Assembly (NCBI GenBank): GCA_016932735.1
Contig: JAFGCI010000004.1
Coordinates: 60,711 to 124,710 of the forward strand
Direction of reading: 5' to 3'
Length of the DNA: 64,000 nucleotides
Source: Candidatus Aenigmatarchaeota archaeon
GTDB taxonomy: Archaea > Aenigmatarchaeota > Aenigmatarchaeia > QMZP01 > QMZT01
Part shown: one piece after another, positions 22,266-32,895 of the stretch
How the letters are laid out: each line of letters starts with the position of its first letter
Numbering within the stretch: position 1 is the first letter of the stretch
Made by a program: the position numbers and the translations under genes
The notes under the pieces: model-generated
What the model was told of the DNA's origin: nothing
What the model saw: the letters and a program-made list of their open reading frames with translations, nothing else
Database searches by the model: none

Positions 22266-23636
22266 TCAACTCCTCTTAGCGAATATATATCCCACCAATA
22301 CAAGGACGCTCCAGATTTCAAGGCGTCCTGCAATCATCACTACCATTAATGTTATCTTTGAGATAATATTAAAATCAGACACTATTGAAAGGCCGACGTT
22401 GCCCTGGGCAGAAGCAACTGAGAACATCGATTCCACTGCACTATAACCCGTAAACATCAGAATTGCTGAGGCAATAACAAATAATATAATATAAAGCATG
22501 CTGTATCTGTAAACTTCATATACTTCCTCATCCTTAAAGATTGTGCCGCCGACTCCCTGCCTGAAGACTCTTTTTGGCAAAAGCAGTTTTCTTACATTGT
22601 TGATTATGCTTCTGCAAAGAACCGCGACCCTTATTGATTTTATTCCTCCTGCAGTCGAGCCGGCCGCGCCTCCGATTATCATTACTATTACAAGTATAAT
22701 TAGTGAAAAGTCGCTCCATGCTTCAAGACCGCTTATCTGGAATCCTGTCCCCATGGCCGATACTACATGAAAAGAAGACGACAGTATATCATTGAAAGGC
22801 AGGATGACAACTGTGGCTACAGCAAGGACCAGGAAGACCATGTGATTTTGTATGTCTTTGATAAATTCTTTTACTTTTCCTGTAAGAAGCCTGTAGTGGC
22901 TTAAGAAGCTTATATTGCCTAGAATCATCAGTGCCATCAAGGCAATGTATATAGGAACAGAATCGAATGCACCGACGCTCGCTGCTCTTGTTGACATTCC
23001 CCCCGTCGCTATGGCTGTCATTGTATGATTTACTGAATCAAAAATTGGCATTCCCAGAATTGTCAGGAATATTATGCCAATTATTGTATAAAGGCAATAA
23101 ACCCACCATATGGTTTTTGTTGTGTTGATAATATTCGGCTGTATTCTCTCATCCCTCCCCTCGGCTGTGTAAAGGGTTATCCCGACCTTCAGCAGTCCGT
23201 TAAGCGCCAGGACGACTATGCCAAGACCGCCCAGCCACTGACCAAGGCTTCTCCAGAATAATATTGTATGGCTCAAAGTCTCCGGATTGAGCAGGGTGAA
23301 ACCTGTCGTCGTCCAGGAACTTACTGACTCGAATAAAGCGTCTACGAAACTCATTCTGACTGTCTACATTAATGGTATAGAGCCAATCAGTGTTATCACA
23401 ATCCAGAGGATTACTATAGTGACCAAAGACTGCCTAAGCTTCATTTTCTTGTTATCCCTGGGAGGGAGCTTCCTCATTATCAGGCTTATGAAGAATGTCA
23501 GGATAAACAAAAAAAGGAATGGTGCAATGTCGTCGAACTCTCTGTAAATCAAAGATACTATAATGGGAAGAAGAAAAACAAAGGACATATATTTCAGAAT
23601 AGTGCCCACTTCGCCGAAGACAGGAGAAACCTTCAT
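22266..23636 (-). pseudogene. trkH: TrkH K+ channel-like subunit interrupted by in-frame TAG at 23364..23366
   Basis: ORFs 23364..23636 (N-terminal TMs and first M1) and 22266..23354 (P-loop SFVDALFESVSSWTTTGFT onward) are in the same frame, separated by TAG ACA GTC AGA. Confidence 0.75.
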
Positions 23637-23987: not shown

Positions 23988-24061
23988 AAAAATCACCTGT
24001 GTTTTAGTATTGTTAATAATATTTATTGAATCCATTTAAGTCTGAACTCCTATACCTTGTT

Positions 24062-26728
24062 ATGCTTGTGCAAATTCTGGACGCGGACTATGTGATGCTC
24101 GAAAACAAGCCATTGTTAAGGATTTACGGCAAGACTGAAAAGGGCGATTCTGCATGCGTTTTCTACAGCGGCTTCATGCCTTATTTTTATGTTGATGAAG
24201 TTCCCGAATGGCTTAAAAAAGATCCTCAGGTTTTTTCTATAGAGCCCGTTGAAAGGGTTTATCCGATGTTCTACCGGACAGATAAAATGAAACTTTTCAA
24301 GGTAACAATTCACGACCCTTCCAGGACACCCGAACTTAGAGACAAGGTCATCGAAGGGGGCGGAACTGCCTATGAAGCTGATATTCTCTTCAAGTACAGA
24401 TTTATGGCAGATGCCGGCATCGGAAGTCTTATGTGGCTCGACATTAAAGGGGCATCGTCTGCTAATACATCGACTGTGCGCACAAAGACCAAGTTCGAAG
24501 TTAAAGGGATAAATATTATGGATAAGGTAGCGAATTCTGATTTCCGGTCTCTTGCATTAGATATAGAATGCGTGGCAGAAAATCAGGGTGAAGTCCCGAC
24601 AGCCGAAAGGGATCCTATAATAATGATATCGCTTGTATTTAGCGAGGAATATAACGGAAAAAAAGAAATGGTCATAAGCTACAGGCCGGGAAGCAACGTG
24701 CAATCATACAATGATGAAAATGGTATGCTCAAAGGCCTGATAGATATCATAAATGATTTTGATCCCGACTTCATAGTCGGTTACAATATAAACAACTTCG
24801 ATCTGCCTTACATAATCGAAAGGATGCAGAGGCTCAAGATACCGGCCATGTTTACACGTGCGACCGATAAGTCTGCGTGGACTAAGAAATTAGCAATGGG
24901 TTATAGGAACAATGTGCTGGGGAGGATTATAGCTGACCCTTTCGCGCTGATAAAAAAAGACTTCTCATTCAAAAGGTATTCACTGGAAAACGTCGCCTCA
25001 GAACTTTTGGGCGAACACAAAGAAGATGTCAAATATTCAGAAATGGAGAAATTGTGGAAAGGCGACCAGAAAGGATATGACCGTCTGGTCTCATACTGCC
25101 TGACGGATGCTCGTCTGGCTATGAGACTTTTCGGGGAGTTCAATCTTCTTGATAAATATATAGGGATATCGCGCATCTGCTGTCTCTTCCTTCAGGACGT
25201 CCTTGATGGAGGAGAAACCCAGAGAATTGAGCATTATCTTATGAGGGAATTCAACAGGAACGGCTACATATTCCCCCTCAAGCCCTCACAGGAGGAAATG
25301 GCTGAAAGGGACAACCAGAGAAAGGTTGGTCTCAAGGGAGGCTTCGTTCTGGACCCAGAGCCGGGGATGCACGAGAATGTCGCTGTCATGGACTTCAAAT
25401 CAATGTATCCGTCCCTTATCAGGACTTATAACATATGCCCTACCACGCTTGTCGGCCCGGACGGCCCGAAATTTACAGAAGATGAAATAAGCAAATCGCC
25501 AGAAGGCGGCAGTTTTGTAAAGCCCGAAATAAGGAAGGGCATAGTTCCTTACATTCTGGAGAACCTGATGAATGAAAGGGCTAACGTGAAAAAACGCCTT
25601 AAGAAAGCAACAAAGGACGGCAATGCTGCTGAGGTCAGGGAACTAAATACCAAACAGCTCGGAATAAAAATTATGGCCAACGCCTTCTATGGGCATATGG
25701 GCTATCCCAGGGCAAGAATATATAATATGGATGTCGCCAATGCTATAACTTCGTGGGGGCGGCAGACCATCCAGAAGACGAAGGATATTATAGAAAAGGA
25801 TTATGGTTATAAGGTCATATACGGCGATACCGATTCAGTGATGGTCGAGCTTGATAAGGTTTTTGACAACAAAAAAATTGCAGAAGTCGGTAATAAAATA
25901 TCAGAGGAGATAACCAAGAACCTCCCCGGCATCATGGAGCTTGAGTTTGAGAAGATTTTCAAAAGGTTCCTTCCATTGGCAAAGAAGAGATATGCGGCAT
26001 GGGCATTTATTCCGAAGGGTGGTGGCGAGTGGGTGGAAAAAATTGATATGAAAGGCATAGAAACCGTCCGCCGTGACTGGTGCGACCTTTCCTCTGAAAC
26101 ACTGAGGAATGTAATTGACATAATACTCAAGGAGAACGACAGGGAAAGAGCCGTCCAGTATTTCCAGAATATAGCCAAGAGCCTGGGGGAAGGCAATATA
26201 CCCATGGACAAACTTGTTGTCACCAAAACCCTGACGAAACGTCCTGAAAGCTATCCTGGTGTCCAGCCGCACGCCGAAGTGGCCAAAAAGATGACCCAGA
26301 GAAATCCCGCCGACGCTCCCAGTGTGGGGGACAGGATAAGCTATGTTATTGTAAAAGGAACCCAGCTGCTTTCCTATAGGGCCGAGGATCCTGAATACGT
26401 GACAGAGAAAGGCCTGCATCTTGATTCAATATATTATATGGAGAATCAGCTTCTCCCTCCGGTCGAAAGGATATTCGAGGCTCTTAACGTAACAAAATCG
26501 GAGCTTATGGGAAAGGGGAAACAAATGAATCTATTCAGCATGATGGGAAAGCAGGCTTCCAAAAAGGCAAAACCGGAAATTCCTGTTGCGGATATAATTG
26601 GATTCTCGTGCGAAGAGTGCGGGAGACCTTACAGGCGGCCTACGTTAACAGGATACTGTGAATGCGGCGGAAAAATACTATTTTCTTCTGCAAAAGGCAA
26701 TGCAGATGTTGTAAAGAATCCTTCTTAA
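24062..26728 (+). CDS. polB: Family B DNA polymerase (no intein)
   Basis: ALDIEC (ExoI), VGYNINNFDLPY, DFKSMYPSLI, KIMANAFYG, YGDTDSVMV. Confidence 0.95.
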   Translation: MLVQILDADYVMLENKPLLRIYGKTEKGDSACVFYSGFMPYFYVDEVPEWLKKDPQVFSIEPVERVYPMFYRTDKMKLFKVTIHDPSRTPELRDKVIEGGGTAYEADILFKYRFMADAGIGSLMWLDIKGASSANTSTVRTKTKFEVKGINIMDKVANSDFRSLALDIECVAENQGEVPTAERDPIIMISLVFSEEYNGKKEMVISYRPGSNVQSYNDENGMLKGLIDIINDFDPDFIVGYNINNFDLPYIIERMQRLKIPAMFTRATDKSAWTKKLAMGYRNNVLGRIIADPFALIKKDFSFKRYSLENVASELLGEHKEDVKYSEMEKLWKGDQKGYDRLVSYCLTDARLAMRLFGEFNLLDKYIGISRICCLFLQDVLDGGETQRIEHYLMREFNRNGYIFPLKPSQEEMAERDNQRKVGLKGGFVLDPEPGMHENVAVMDFKSMYPSLIRTYNICPTTLVGPDGPKFTEDEISKSPEGGSFVKPEIRKGIVPYILENLMNERANVKKRLKKATKDGNAAEVRELNTKQLGIKIMANAFYGHMGYPRARIYNMDVANAITSWGRQTIQKTKDIIEKDYGYKVIYGDTDSVMVELDKVFDNKKIAEVGNKISEEITKNLPGIMELEFEKIFKRFLPLAKKRYAAWAFIPKGGGEWVEKIDMKGIETVRRDWCDLSSETLRNVIDIILKENDRERAVQYFQNIAKSLGEGNIPMDKLVVTKTLTKRPESYPGVQPHAEVAKKMTQRNPADAPSVGDRISYVIVKGTQLLSYRAEDPEYVTEKGLHLDSIYYMENQLLPPVERIFEALNVTKSELMGKGKQMNLFSMMGKQASKKAKPEIPVADIIGFSCEECGRPYRRPTLTGYCECGGKILFSSAKGNADVVKNPS

Positions 26729-26894: not shown

Positions 26895-26936
26895 TTTCCA
26901 GATGAAGTTAACGACCCCCCTTAATTTTATATGCCC
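26895..26936. repeat. 42-bp direct repeat, copy 1 (tttccagatgaagttaacgaccccccttaattttatatgccc)
   Basis: Identical to 27606..27647 by direct reading; 18 bp upstream of the LAGLIDADG-like ORF. Confidence 0.95.
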
Positions 26937-26954
26937 GTTATACATGAATAACAT

Positions 26955-27581
26955 ATGAAGAAAGATTTTATGATCGGCTATATTTCAGGTGTCATCTGCT
27001 CAAAAGGCTTTGTTATTTACAATAAAAAGGAATCGATTTATACTATTGCCTTTGAAACAGGGAATGAAGAACTTTATAACATATTCACGGAAATGTGGGG
27101 CTCGCTGATGAAAACCGGTTTCAAAACTTACGAAAAGATCTACAAGAAACAGAAACGATTCGTCTTCAGGGTGTATGACGAAAAAACCGTCAGGAGATTT
27201 TTTTACAGATACGGATTCCGGACAGGTTCACATCACTGGAAGATACCAAAAATTGTTTCCGGAAACAAAGAAAGTCTGAGAGGGTTTCTTTCAGGTTTAT
27301 TTGATTCCGGCTCTTATATCAGGTGGAAAATCCGTGAAAGAGGGAAGAAAAAAGAAAAGGTAAGGAATATAAGGATTGTATCGCCTTGCAAAAGGGGGTT
27401 ACTGGCCGTTAAAAACGCACTTACAGAATTCGGTATTTCACCGATGTCGTATTCATCAGGAAAAAATTACTGCCTAGATATTGAAGGTAAAATGAAGCTG
27501 GAACTCTTTGAAATGAGAATCGGTTTCCTTCTGGGAATTAACAAAATAAGATTACAGGAAGCACTTTCATATAAAAAGTGA
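26955..27581 (+). CDS. Free-standing LAGLIDADG-like protein with two degenerate motifs
   Basis: FMIGYISGVICSKG and LRGFLSGLFDSGSYI spaced like a two-motif LAGLIDADG protein. Confidence 0.65.
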   Translation: MKKDFMIGYISGVICSKGFVIYNKKESIYTIAFETGNEELYNIFTEMWGSLMKTGFKTYEKIYKKQKRFVFRVYDEKTVRRFFYRYGFRTGSHHWKIPKIVSGNKESLRGFLSGLFDSGSYIRWKIRERGKKKEKVRNIRIVSPCKRGLLAVKNALTEFGISPMSYSSGKNYCLDIEGKMKLELFEMRIGFLLGINKIRLQEALSYKK

Positions 27582-27605
27582 ATTTTGTTTGTTCTTCATT
27601 GGGGG

Positions 27606-27647
27606 TTTCCAGATGAAGTTAACGACCCCCCTTAATTTTATATGCCC
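27606..27647. repeat. 42-bp direct repeat, copy 2, overlapping the 3' end of the TctA-like gene
   Basis: Identical to 26895..26936; contains the stop codon of the minus-strand gene. Confidence 0.95.
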
Positions 27648-28834
27648 ATATTCATGAAGAAAAGTATGACGGTCAGCATGAAAAACCCCATCATGTAGCT
27701 TCTTCTTATGTTCATCTGGATGCAGAAAATGCCTATGAATACCCCCACCATACAAATGAGAGCCCCGTACAATCCCGTCAGAGCAATGACGAGAACCGAC
27801 ACAATAGCTATAACAATCTTCCCAGCGGTTGCATAATCTATCATGGAAAGCCTGCTTAGGAAAAGCCATCCTATTTTAAGCGTCATGAATCCTGCTACCA
27901 GCGCCGATATTAATGCAACCGGAACTATCAAAATGAACAACCCTGTGTTCATTTCGGTGATTTGTGAAACAAATATAGCGAGACCAGAACGTGTTTTGGA
28001 TATCGTGAACAAGACGACCAGTGTGAATATTATATTGGATGTGTTTATTCCTCCCAGTGCTGAAACGAAGTCCCTCATTTTTGTTTTCATAATCTGGGCG
28101 GAAACCATTCCCGCCTGTGAAGAGCCGACGCCCGGAAGCAGCCCGACCAGCATCCCGCTGAGCCATCCTGTTACAGGCCCTTTAAAACCTATCCGGGAGG
28201 GTTTATTTCTTTTTTGCGGAGGGACCTCGGTTCTTTCCTTCACGCTCAGAATCAAGGTACTGAGACCGAACATTCCCGACAGCGCCGGGAATATCATCTC
28301 CTGTGAAGACGGAAGAGAGAAAACTATGATACCATAAAAACCTGACATTAAGAATATGACAAGAGCCCAGAACCGGTTGATGCCCCTTTCTGACAGCAAC
28401 ATCCAGACCAATATTGCTATGAGCACTAAATGAACATATGATTTTAGAAATTCATAGATAATCGGAGTTATCCATATGAGAACGGGCAAGCTTATAATCA
28501 TCAATAATGTCGATAACACGCCGCCGTATACTGTTAGGTAAAGGGCCTCATACCCTCTTCCTTTCATTAGCATTTTATGACCCGGGAGAACAGAGAGCTC
28601 ACTGCCTTCTTCGGGGGCCCCGAAAATAAGTGAAGGAATGAAGTCAATGAACGTATTGGTGACAGCCACCGATACGACAAATGATATAATTGCATAAATG
28701 CCGAACACTTCCAGAAAGGGTACAAAAGATAACAGTATTATATATATTGTATTTGGGTGGAGGCCGGGGACGAGTCCTGTCAATATACCCACAACAATGC
28801 CAAAAAATATGAAAATTATGATTTCGAAAAACAT
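27638..28834 (-). CDS. TctA-family (DUF112-like) membrane transporter
   Basis: Multi-TM with paired GLVPGLHPNTI and GLLPGVGSSQAG motifs, typical of TctA permeases. Confidence 0.75.
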   Translation of the reverse strand: MFFEIIIFIFFGIVVGILTGLVPGLHPNTIYIILLSFVPFLEVFGIYAIISFVVSVAVTNTFIDFIPSLIFGAPEEGSELSVLPGHKMLMKGRGYEALYLTVYGGVLSTLLMIISLPVLIWITPIIYEFLKSYVHLVLIAILVWMLLSERGINRFWALVIFLMSGFYGIIVFSLPSSQEMIFPALSGMFGLSTLILSVKERTEVPPQKRNKPSRIGFKGPVTGWLSGMLVGLLPGVGSSQAGMVSAQIMKTKMRDFVSALGGINTSNIIFTLVVLFTISKTRSGLAIFVSQITEMNTGLFILIVPVALISALVAGFMTLKIGWLFLSRLSMIDYATAGKIVIAIVSVLVIALTGLYGALICMVGVFIGIFCIQMNIRRSYMMGFFMLTVILFFMNMGI

Positions 28835-28959: not shown

Positions 28960-29676
28960 ATGGATGAGCTCGAAATCGCAAAAGACAATCTTGCCAGAAG
29001 TATTGTGGGGGAGATTGTCCTTTCGGACAAGCCCGAGGCTATACTCAAGAAATGGAGGAACATATTCAATTTCTCCCAGAAGGACGTTGCAGCTTCGCTC
29101 GGTATAACATCGTCGGTTATATCCGACTACGAGTCGGGACGGAGAAAGTCGCCGGGTATAAAGATAATAAAGAAGTATGTAACCGCTCTTATAGAAATGG
29201 ATTTGAAAAAGGGCGGCGATGTCGTAAGAAGCTTCTCGCAGACGGAAAAGAGTTCGACTCTTTCAGAAGCTATCCTTGACATTAAAGAATTCTCTGAAGG
29301 CGTCACTATAAAAGACTTCACGGACAGGATTAACGGTGTCTTTGTAACCAAGGAGAAGTTCGCGGACAGGAAAATCTATGGTTATACAATAATCGATTCT
29401 ATAAAGGCCATATCCGATCTTTCCTTCAACCAGATGCTGAAATTATACGGGACCACGACCCAGAGAGCCATGATATTCACTAAGGTGACAACAGGGAAAA
29501 CCCCAATGGTCGCGATAAAACTGACCAACCTTAATCCCGGGATGGTTGTGCTCCATGGCCTGACGAGCGTTTATGATGTAGCCAAGAATATCGCAGACGC
29601 GGAAGGAATCCCATTGGTTGTATGCAAGCTCGAAAGACCGGAAGATATAGTTGAAGCCCTGAAATATTTTAACTAA
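28960..29676 (+). CDS. Archaeal transcriptional regulator with XRE-type HTH
   Basis: RNIFNFSQKDVAASLGITSSVISDYESGRRKSPG helix-turn-helix. Confidence 0.85.
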   Translation: MDELEIAKDNLARSIVGEIVLSDKPEAILKKWRNIFNFSQKDVAASLGITSSVISDYESGRRKSPGIKIIKKYVTALIEMDLKKGGDVVRSFSQTEKSSTLSEAILDIKEFSEGVTIKDFTDRINGVFVTKEKFADRKIYGYTIIDSIKAISDLSFNQMLKLYGTTTQRAMIFTKVTTGKTPMVAIKLTNLNPGMVVLHGLTSVYDVAKNIADAEGIPLVVCKLERPEDIVEALKYFN

Positions 29677-30349
29677 CGTTTTTTGTTTCACAGGACACTT
29701 TCCCATTTTTGTTTATTTCTGCTATTCCATATTTGCCCTGAAAGACCGGCCCGGGATAAAAAAGAGTGGTGTCTCCTATCTTATCGTCGCCGTCTGATTC
29801 ATGTATATGCGCGGAGACCGCCAATACCGGCCTCGTCCTCTCTATAAAATTCCTTATGTTTCTGGATCCTACATGTTTTTTATCTGTCACCATATCAAGT
29901 TTGGTGTTGTAGGGCGGGTTGTGTACAACAAGAATGAATTTTTCGTTGTTCATTTCCTTATATGTCTCGTTTATGTATTTTTTTGTTTCCTCTTCTGTAG
30001 GTTCAAACCTGGTGTCGAACGGCGTCATCGCACCGCCCCATCCCATTATAGGTAACCCGTCTATGATTTTGGAATCTGCATGTATGTTGATACCGTAATC
30101 CTTAAAAATCTCCATGATGCCGTAAGGGTCTTGGTTTCCGGGGACAGCGAAGACTGGTTTTTTTGAAGACATCATCCGGCATATGACTATCTCCGCTATT
30201 TCAAGCTGTGTAAACCCGTCGGGTATGTCGTGCATATCTGTAAAATCCCCCGGCGCTATTATGGCATCGTATTTTCCCTTCTCCTTTTTCATTATCTGCG
30301 AAAGCTTCAGAAAATCGCCGTGAACGTCTGCCAAGATAAGGAATTTCAT
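29669..30349 (-). CDS. Metallophosphoesterase
   Basis: LILADVHGD, IAPGDFTD, VPGNQDPYG, VVHNPP, SAHIHES. Confidence 0.85.
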   Translation of the reverse strand: MKFLILADVHGDFLKLSQIMKKEKGKYDAIIAPGDFTDMHDIPDGFTQLEIAEIVICRMMSSKKPVFAVPGNQDPYGIMEIFKDYGINIHADSKIIDGLPIMGWGGAMTPFDTRFEPTEEETKKYINETYKEMNNEKFILVVHNPPYNTKLDMVTDKKHVGSRNIRNFIERTRPVLAVSAHIHESDGDDKIGDTTLFYPGPVFQGKYGIAEINKNGKVSCETKNVS

Positions 30350-30379: not shown

Positions 30380-31345
30380 TCAGAAACCGCTCTTCCCCAG
30401 CTTGATTTTATCCTCGAGTCCCGTCGATATTATTGTAACGCTCTTGTAGTTTGTTCTGGTTTTCTCTCCGGCAGCGGAAGATACAACAAACAGGTCGGGG
30501 ACCTCCTTAATTATCAGGAATGAGGGTATCGTGTTTTCCTCTGTTCTTATGGACCTCTTTCTTAAAAAATTTATAAGCTTTCCTTTATCCAAACGATCAT
30601 TTGTCCTGTAAAACAATATTTTCATCTCTTCTTTTCCCTTTCTCACAGAAAAAAGAGAAGCGTTCTTCACTTTTATCTTCTTGCCTTCTATGTCTATACT
30701 ATCAGATTTCGAAAAATCAAACGATATTTCAGCTGATATTATTTTTTGTATATTATCCAGCGGTATATCCGGTAAAATCACGTCTTCAGCGAACATGGAA
30801 TTGTTTTTTATAAGGCCGCTTACTGCGACAACGTCATCGTTTTCTATATCGCCGTTCCCCGAATAAATGACATTCAGGGCTCCCGTCTCGTCCTCTATTG
30901 TGAGGCCGTTGTCCGTTTTCTGGCTGATGATACCGATGACGGATACCCTGTCTTTGTTATTTTCAGTTTTGTTTATCGATAGGGAAGTTGTCCTTTCAGA
31001 AAGAATGTCTCTTACCTCGTTGTATTTTTTATTGTAGACAGAAACAATATCCATTACATTTATCTTCTTTTTATCTATTTCTTTCAGTTCGCCCAGGACC
31101 TTTATTTCTATATCGCTTCCTTCTTCCGGCTGCTTCGGTTTTATATGGTCTCCGGGGGTCGTGGTCCCTCTTTCGGCTCCGCCCTTTGATAAGGCCACGT
31201 TTCCGTTGTTTGTAAGGCCACGTTTCTCTCTCAGTTTTTCTTCTAAAAAGTCCTTATGATTCTTCTTTTCCAGTGCGATGAACTCCTCCGGTTTGAGCAG
31301 TATGTCGTTCTGCAAAAAAAGTTTGATAACGGACTCTTCGCTCAT
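30380..31345 (-). CDS. DNA polymerase D small-subunit (DP1)-like protein with eroded phosphodiesterase domain
   Basis: N-term SVIKLFLQNDILLKPEEF; OB fold VSVIGIISQKTDNGLTIEDETGALNVIYS; AEDVILPDIPL; C-term EVPDLFVVSSAAGEKTRTNYKSVTIISTG. Lies directly downstream of cdc6. Confidence 0.72.
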   Translation of the reverse strand: MSEESVIKLFLQNDILLKPEEFIALEKKNHKDFLEEKLREKRGLTNNGNVALSKGGAERGTTTPGDHIKPKQPEEGSDIEIKVLGELKEIDKKKINVMDIVSVYNKKYNEVRDILSERTTSLSINKTENNKDRVSVIGIISQKTDNGLTIEDETGALNVIYSGNGDIENDDVVAVSGLIKNNSMFAEDVILPDIPLDNIQKIISAEISFDFSKSDSIDIEGKKIKVKNASLFSVRKGKEEMKILFYRTNDRLDKGKLINFLRKRSIRTEENTIPSFLIIKEVPDLFVVSSAAGEKTRTNYKSVTIISTGLEDKIKLGKSGF

Positions 31346-31367: not shown

Positions 31368-32591
31368 TTATATGAATTCGTTCTTCATGTGTTGTCTTAT
31401 TTTTTCCATGACACTATCTGAAAGGTTCATCGATACTTCCCGCGTCCTCCCATACCTGCCCTTTGATATGACTTTGGCGTTTATTATTCCTAACATGTCA
31501 AGTTCTGATATGAGGTCTGTCACCCTTCTCTGTGTAAGTTCGCTGATGAAGTTTTCCTTACACTTCTTTATGTAAAGATCGTACACGTCTCCTGTCTGTA
31601 TGTTCTCCGCTCCCTTATCTACAAGCTCCACAACAGACTGGAGAACTGCTTTTGATTGTTTTGGTTGGGTTTTTACTATTTCCATTATTTTATCTTTATC
31701 CAGTTTCTTCTCCGCGTCAATCACATCTCTCTCTTCGATGTTTGTTCTTCCCTCTCTTTCTGCTATCTCCCCAGACACTCTTAGAAGATCGAGAGCCTTC
31801 CTGACGTCGCCGTGCTCCTGCGCCGCCAGGGCCGAGCATTTAGCAATTATTGATTTAGAAACCGCTCCGCCGTTGAATGCAAGATTGACCCTTTCCGTTA
31901 AGATATCGTTCAGCTGCATTGCATTGTAAGGGGGGAATATCATCTCCTCCTCAGAAAGTGTCGACTTGACTCTCGGGTCTATCTCGTTGATGAAAGAAAT
32001 CTTGTTGGATATCCCGACAAGCGTTATCATGCTGTTCTTTATCTCCTGGTTAATCCTGGTCAGATTATAGAGGACACCGTCGCCAACCTTCTCGACAAGA
32101 GCGTCTATCTCATCCAGCACGAGTATTATATTGTGTTTCTCTTTCTCCATTATTTCATAGAACATCCTGTAAAGCTTGTCTGTTGGGAGGCCCGTACAGG
32201 GGATATCCACATCAAAAAAGGACAGTATTTGCGAGAGGAGCCGGTATTCTGTGTCGCTTACCTTTCTCATCTTACAGTTTATGTATATTGTTTTTATCTT
32301 GTTGTTCATGTTACGTGTTGCTGTCTCGCCCAGAACATCGAGGACGTGAGCAACGCACAGCGTCTTTCCCGTTCCGGTCTTCCCATAAACAAAAACGTTT
32401 GAGGGCTTTTCTCCCCTTAATATAGGAGCCATTATCATGCCGAGATGCCTTATGTGCTCCTCCCTGTGTGGTATGTTCAGAGGTGTAAATTGTATAAGAA
32501 GTGTTGTCTTATCAACGAATATTGGCTTTTGTGTCATATAGCTATTGAATATATCATTCAGATTTGATTGCCCTGCCATCTCTAACCCCAT
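31368..32591 (-). CDS. cdc6: Orc1/Cdc6 replication initiator
   Basis: FVYGKTGTGKTLCVAHVL (Walker A), ILVLDEIDALVEKVGDGVLYNLTRIN, C-terminal winged helix. Confidence 0.93.
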   Translation of the reverse strand: MGLEMAGQSNLNDIFNSYMTQKPIFVDKTTLLIQFTPLNIPHREEHIRHLGMIMAPILRGEKPSNVFVYGKTGTGKTLCVAHVLDVLGETATRNMNNKIKTIYINCKMRKVSDTEYRLLSQILSFFDVDIPCTGLPTDKLYRMFYEIMEKEKHNIILVLDEIDALVEKVGDGVLYNLTRINQEIKNSMITLVGISNKISFINEIDPRVKSTLSEEEMIFPPYNAMQLNDILTERVNLAFNGGAVSKSIIAKCSALAAQEHGDVRKALDLLRVSGEIAEREGRTNIEERDVIDAEKKLDKDKIMEIVKTQPKQSKAVLQSVVELVDKGAENIQTGDVYDLYIKKCKENFISELTQRRVTDLISELDMLGIINAKVISKGRYGRTREVSMNLSDSVMEKIRQHMKNEFI

Positions 32592-32895
32592 CGTTTCATT
32601 TGGAAGTCCAGTTATAAAAAGGTTTGTTTCGGGTGGAAAAATATAACATTGTTATATAATATATATTTTATTCATCGTATTGATTATTAATAACGTTTCC
32701 ATATGAAATTGGGGGGTGGTGGGGTATAACACCAATTACCCGAACATTTTGTTCGATAAACCCTCAAACATCAGGGTTTCTTGCTAGTTTTATTCGCTTA
32801 ATTACATTTTACGGGCGTCCGTTATCATGTGTTCACTTTTCACTTTCTTTGGTCTTGGTTATTCTTTATATAACGAGGCAGTCAAATTCAATCAC
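32592..32895. promoter_or_regulatory. Candidate chromosomal replication origin
   Basis: Intergenic between cdc6 and hjc; AT-rich block ~32640-32695; ORB-like dyad plus G-string (gtttccatatgaaattggggggtggtgggg); inverted repeats cgaac/gttcg and aaaccct/agggttt. Confidence 0.6.

Follow-up and report, generated by a model that had tools for sequence, protein, structure and literature searches.

A repeat-flanked LAGLIDADG gene without catalytic acids near a presumptive replication origin in Aenigmatarchaeota

The locus and its neighbours

The window (the whole 64,000-nucleotide stretch of DNA analysed here) contains a replication-gene block, in which cdc6/orc1, a PolD small-subunit-like gene and a TctA-family gene lie convergent with polB, with a LAGLIDADG gene in the ORB-bearing intergenic region (Table 1). 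Its host belongs to Candidatus Aenigmatarchaeota (DPANN), a name borne by nearly all of the nearest named PolB loci. The LAGLIDADG gene begins 18 nt past the first copy of a 42-bp direct repeat, and its stop codon falls 24 nt short of the second, which runs over the final 10 bases of the minus-strand TctA gene. As the sequence-only reading had reported, the two copies are identical (42/42 positions, spacing 711), and an exact repeat of this kind at 711-bp spacing is far beyond chance. The weaker similarity described on both sides of it was not recovered: ungapped flanks match at 7/30 positions on the left and 11/30 on the right, which is the chance level, and the edges of the repeat are therefore sharp. 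The two ends of the 711-bp unit carry no terminal inverted repeats. A genome search with the 42-mer, proposed at the same time, covered the whole 1.18-Mb assembly (central 30-mer, ≤3 mismatches) and returned these two sites only, which rules out a dispersed regulatory repeat. An RNA element was also rejected, as the Rfam match is sub-threshold (PhrS, 20.8 vs 37 bits), and so was an insertion sequence or transposon, since the unit holds a single LAGLIDADG ORF and lacks a transposase or recombinase, inverted repeats and multiple copies.

Table 1. Coordinates of genes and sites at the locus, numbered from the first base of the window.
Feature	Position	Strand	Basis or remark
DNA polymerase B gene	24026..26728	+	Family match
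Repeat copy 1	26895..26936	+	Candidate operator/promoter for the LAGLIDADG gene; carries CAGATGAA 56 nt 5' of the ATG
TATA-like box TTTTATAT	26925..26932	+	-30 to -23 of the ATG, read from sequence
LAGLIDADG protein gene, 208 aa	26955..27581	+	Pfam and structure model
Lys17 codon	27003..27005	+	Catalytic position, motif 1 (ISGVICSKG)
Gly119 codon	27309..27311	+	Catalytic position, motif 2 (LSGLFDSGS)
Repeat copy 2	27606..27647	+	Overlaps TctA stop; probably the older site
TctA-family membrane protein gene	27638..28834	-	PF01970, E 8e-48
PolD small-subunit-like gene	30380..31345	-	Family match
cdc6/orc1 initiator gene	31368..32591	-	Family match
ORB-like site, cdc6 side	32583..32606	-	24.1 bits
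ORB-like site	32696..32719	+	26.0 bits; inverted relative to 32583..32606, AT-rich between

No other ORB-like site on the 189-kb contig scores as high as the two at the cdc6 5' end. With the AT-rich stretch between them, this inverted pair is the presumptive oriC and lies 5 kb away from the 42-bp copies. GC skew along the contig has no clear switch at the site and neither supports nor contradicts an origin there. With 321 aa the PolD small-subunit-like product is short, and its match to the NCBIfam model is confined to the N-terminal region of that model; a separate metallophosphoesterase gene (29669-30349) adjoins it, and the two may be a split subunit. On the other side, a TrkH-like potassium transporter gene (22266-23636, minus strand) carries an in-frame TAG at 23364-23366 (GSIPLM*TVRMSFVDALFE), for which sequencing error, a pseudogene and recoding of the stop are all conceivable explanations.

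Loss of the catalytic acids and conservation of the locus

The assignment of the ORF between the repeats to the LAGLIDADG family, made at first from the letters only, is borne out by a Pfam LAGLIDADG_3 match above the curated cut-off (E 4e-8) and by an AF2 model with a two-repeat LAGLIDADG fold (pLDDT 91). A fold search with this model matched homing endonucleases and WhiA, and two relatives also match Pfam LAGLIDADG_WhiA. A C-terminal helix-turn-helix is absent: the two LAGLIDADG repeats use up the 208 residues, and no HTH family matched. Lysine and glycine stand at the two catalytic positions (Table 1). Using a family profile (strong match, >170 bits) we found strong matches in 15/156 Aenigmatarchaeota genomes, and none of these 15 origin-linked members has D/E at either catalytic position, while D/E occupies both positions in 27/29 distinct other LAGLIDADG proteins of the phylum. 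Being common to all 15 members, the catalytic loss is old. Reading frames are intact in the 15 genomes, and pairs from families f8 and f12 diverge at 0.49-0.65 of third codon positions, against 0.21-0.37 of second positions. With third positions about twice as changeable as second in intact frames, the codon pattern indicates that the protein is under purifying selection.

Other LAGLIDADG proteins without a full catalytic pair occur in the phylum. One pair, L018 and L019 (G008 and G002, family f1), has D/S and N/N at the catalytic positions. Family f10 has a weaker related set at a different genomic location, next to an amine oxidase gene, with an acid at the catalytic positions in 0/7 proteins examined; this second catalytically dead set comprises L052 2054-2593, where the amine oxidase gene adjoins, and loci L120-L128, and no polB lies near these genes in the stretches read.

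The 15 members belong to families f1 (G000, the genome of the window, and G003), f4 (G011, G021), f12 (G053, G047, G059, G080, G081), f8 (G056, G050, G043, G135, G136) and f29 (G132). Fourteen genomes, from families f1, f4, f8 and f12, have the gene next to polB, and the fifteenth (G132) is cut by a contig end. In f1, f4 and f12 it stands between polB and TctA, usually near cdc6/orc1, and in f8 it is one or two genes from polB; its orientation is that of polB in f1/f4 and the opposite in f8/f12.

Within f8 and f12 the family follows the PolB phylogeny, which indicates vertical inheritance. The four members from f1 and f4 do not form a clade in the HEG tree, where support is weak, and are scattered among gene-less genomes in the PolB tree; many losses from one ancestor and transfer to the same locus both fit this patchy presence. 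The branch separating the catalytically dead clade from other LAGLIDADG proteins is also weakly supported (68/46). Single-protein viral scans and tblastn against phage and plasmid sequences found no relatives.

These results do not support the mobile unit that the sequence-only reading had seen in the 711-bp segment. An active unit, excising and re-inserting through the 42-bp repeat with a recombinase supplied in trans, would account for exact, sharp-edged repeats that are alike within and unlike between genomes. It is very improbable, however, given a single locus per genome wherever the family is present, a unit without a recombinase, the lack of viral, phage or plasmid relatives and the vertical inheritance in f8 and f12; the loss of the catalytic acids in 15/15 members likewise speaks against mobility. 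A fresh insertion with target duplication was rejected as the main reading on the grounds that the locus is kept across families and the catalytic sites are dead.

Promoter motif, repeats and ORB-like sites in relatives

All 15 genes carry the motif CA[C/G][A/G]TGAA 56-66 nt 5' of the start codon, against a mean of 0.02/15 and a maximum of 1 in dinucleotide shuffles; the start codons of G011, G021, G059, G080 and G081 were picked among alternatives by N-terminal homology. In the window the motif falls within repeat copy 1 and is followed by the TATA-like box, whose position fits a leaderless archaeal promoter, as the putative promoter is read here. The motif was found upstream of 0/9 f10 paralogues with readable upstream sequence, and a degenerate operator pattern fitted too poorly to be useful. 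A single LAGLIDADG monomer reads about 22 bp, and the 42-mer is longer. The 42-mer is a conserved cis-element of the LAGLIDADG gene and more than a by-product of insertion.

The repeat layout of the window, second copy included, occurs in four genera, with exact repeats of 42 (G000), 45 (G003), 33 (G011) and 47 bp (G021). These are identical within each genome and different between genomes, where 27-34/48 positions agree. Copy 2 has no counterpart in f8/f12, and therefore only copy 1 is general. If the duplication took place before the genera split, the copies would have undergone concerted evolution; otherwise several origins would be needed. Candidate causes of the identity within genomes are gene conversion, repeated re-duplication and shared constraint.

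We scored the repeats on an ORB matrix built from 24 sites (scoring 23.5-35.9). The 42-mer of the window scores 7.5, which is no match to the phylum ORB consensus, so that a plain ORB is not supported in this genome and the repeat is possibly unrelated to Orc1 here. The motif and the ORBs nevertheless have the TCCACATGAA half in common; as the operators score low despite this half, we treat the 42-mer as ORB-related and not as an ORB. One alternative is that the repeats are drifted ORBs kept alike by Orc1/Cdc6, the LAGLIDADG gene being a passenger that serves another function and has its promoter coupled to the binding of Orc1. The shared half would agree with this, as would the ORBs that occupy the same gap in relatives and the repeats of G003 and G021, which still score 26.6 and 19.6. 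We consider it unlikely, though, because the repeats of G000 and G011 (8.9) and four f12 operators (G047, G059, G080 and G081; -3.9 to 5) contrast with scores of 20-32 for the cdc6-side ORBs of these genomes, where present in the assembly, and because the motif keeps a fixed distance from the LAGLIDADG start codon. In general, the score of an operator falls far short of those of the strongest ORBs at its locus.

Eighteen members of the order have an intact polB-TctA gap without the gene, and ORB-like sites are present in 18/18 of these gaps, one to four in each; the longest exact direct repeat in them is 19 bp. A related 19-mer pattern (≤2 mismatches, 41 genomes) matches only in the polB-TctA gap or on the cdc6 side. 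Copy 2 overlaps the TctA stop in the window, and in gene-less G004 (L053) an ORB of the same orientation does so too; removal of one 711-bp unit from the window would leave a gap of about 200 bp that resembles those of gene-less relatives. Judging from the G004 site and the gene-less gaps, an ORB probably stood at the TctA end before the LAGLIDADG gene took up its present arrangement. Copy 2, which the sequence-only reading had called probably the original target, is thus plausibly the older site, and its role as a target would be a further step. That reading had expected to be contradicted by an arrangement common to all relatives or by a dispersed 42-mer; with 18 gene-less gaps and a 42-mer confined to two sites, neither applies cleanly. 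Gene-less relatives exist, and among them there is no occupied/empty pair of close strains.

Two further observations concern this gap. Recurrent TTCACGTGAA-like palindromes also occur in gene-less gaps (e.g. L249, L237) and may be another motif of the origin region. In G001 (L229), the only genome of the same genus, the contig stops 180 nt past polB, approximately where the repeat would begin, which could reflect an assembly break at the repeat or mixed alleles.

The gap also bears on whether the locus is the relic of a declining homing element, in which a free-standing LAGLIDADG endonuclease once targeted the TctA-end ORBs, inserted and duplicated its target, leaving repeats that are leftover target copies and a protein without a present role. 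Such a past is in keeping with LAGLIDADG descent, with ORB-like sites in gene-less gaps (one of them over the TctA stop), with the sharply bounded exact repeats, with the gene's patchy occurrence in the order and with the precedent of WHO, whose target is duplicated beside FBA1. A protein without a role is harder to reconcile with frames intact in 15 genomes and much greater variation at third than at second codon positions, with a catalytic loss that is old, being common to all 15, and with a promoter motif in 15/15 genes even where the second repeat is missing, and we regard the relic as improbable.

A candidate origin-region binder and its precedents

The locus is kept across several families, and a domesticated gene is therefore probable rather than a freshly inserted jumping element. 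The reading that we lean towards, as somewhat probable, is that of a domesticated, non-cutting LAGLIDADG DNA-binding protein nested in the ORB cluster of the origin region and predicted to bind copy 1, its own promoter, as well as copy 2. The protein would have retained DNA binding; copy 1 would be the operator by which it regulates its own expression, driven by the neighbouring TATA box, and with both copies occupied it would sit at the two ends of its gene and may alter the access of Orc1/Cdc6 to the ORB cluster. Exact repeats also allow deletion and gene conversion; these processes may account for the gene's patchy occurrence in the order as well as for the identity of the copies within genomes. 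Several observations weigh against this reading: the 42-mer has a low ORB score and exceeds the span that one monomer reads, f8/f12 have no counterpart of copy 2 and carry the gene in the opposite orientation, the branch of the dead clade is weakly supported, and GC skew was of no help in placing the origin. As a tentative and rather less probable extension, the protein and its sites might form a replicator-regulator pair: a dead homing endonuclease would serve as a dedicated binder of the origin region, ORB-derived sites would co-evolve with it and stay identical per genome, and a once selfish, ORB-targeting enzyme would now control replication initiation.

A domesticated LAGLIDADG protein with a long evolutionary tie to replication genes and ORB sites would connect homing endonucleases with the control of origins and be a further, non-Orc1 candidate factor in archaeal initiation. 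The site-protein pair in 15 genomes is directly testable and offers a natural test for concerted repeat evolution. We found no description of a LAGLIDADG protein at an archaeal origin in the literature, so far as this can be searched, and few domesticated LAGLIDADG proteins are known (WhiA, HO).

Compared with known systems, the protein shares its two-repeat fold with LAGLIDADG homing endonucleases (I-Tsp061I 2dch, PI-PfuI 1dq3, I-DmoI), which are the top PDB matches by sequence and fold, but here both catalytic acids are replaced, and the gene is neither in an intron or intein nor dispersed. In Haloarcula hispanica a downstream ORB cluster is a negative regulator of oriC2 (PMC4010727). This is a similar case of an ORB cluster near, yet separate from, an origin, although that cluster is not known to hold a LAGLIDADG gene. 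Non-Orc1 proteins are tied to archaeal origins elsewhere, namely UBP at the ucm motif in Sulfolobus (PMC12141716) and WhiP at oriC3 (PMC4010727), and the window protein would be another. Neither is a LAGLIDADG protein, and the origin link of UBP is experimental, whereas that of the window protein is drawn from genomic context alone.

In the WHO elements of yeasts, a free-standing gene of LAGLIDADG descent lies next to a duplicated part of its target locus, and HO is domesticated (PMC7282813). WHO differs in that it cuts its target, carries a zinc-finger fusion and duplicates the 3' end of a coding gene, while cutting is not expected of the window protein; the repeat here occurs in four genera, and which copy would be the target is a matter of inference only. 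WHO elements are the closest known parallel to a LAGLIDADG gene that stands free beside a duplicated target. WhiA, an autoregulatory, domesticated LAGLIDADG transcription factor, binds DNA through a C-terminal HTH (PMC3781837), an added domain that the 208-aa protein does not have; it is also bacterial, is not linked to an origin and acts on many target genes, unlike a 42-mer found at one locus. Both proteins have a degenerate LAGLIDADG domain without catalytic residues (WhiA/DUF199, fold match 8dy9_I, TM 0.73 by query length); as a regulator with a degenerate LAGLIDADG domain, WhiA is the closest precedent.
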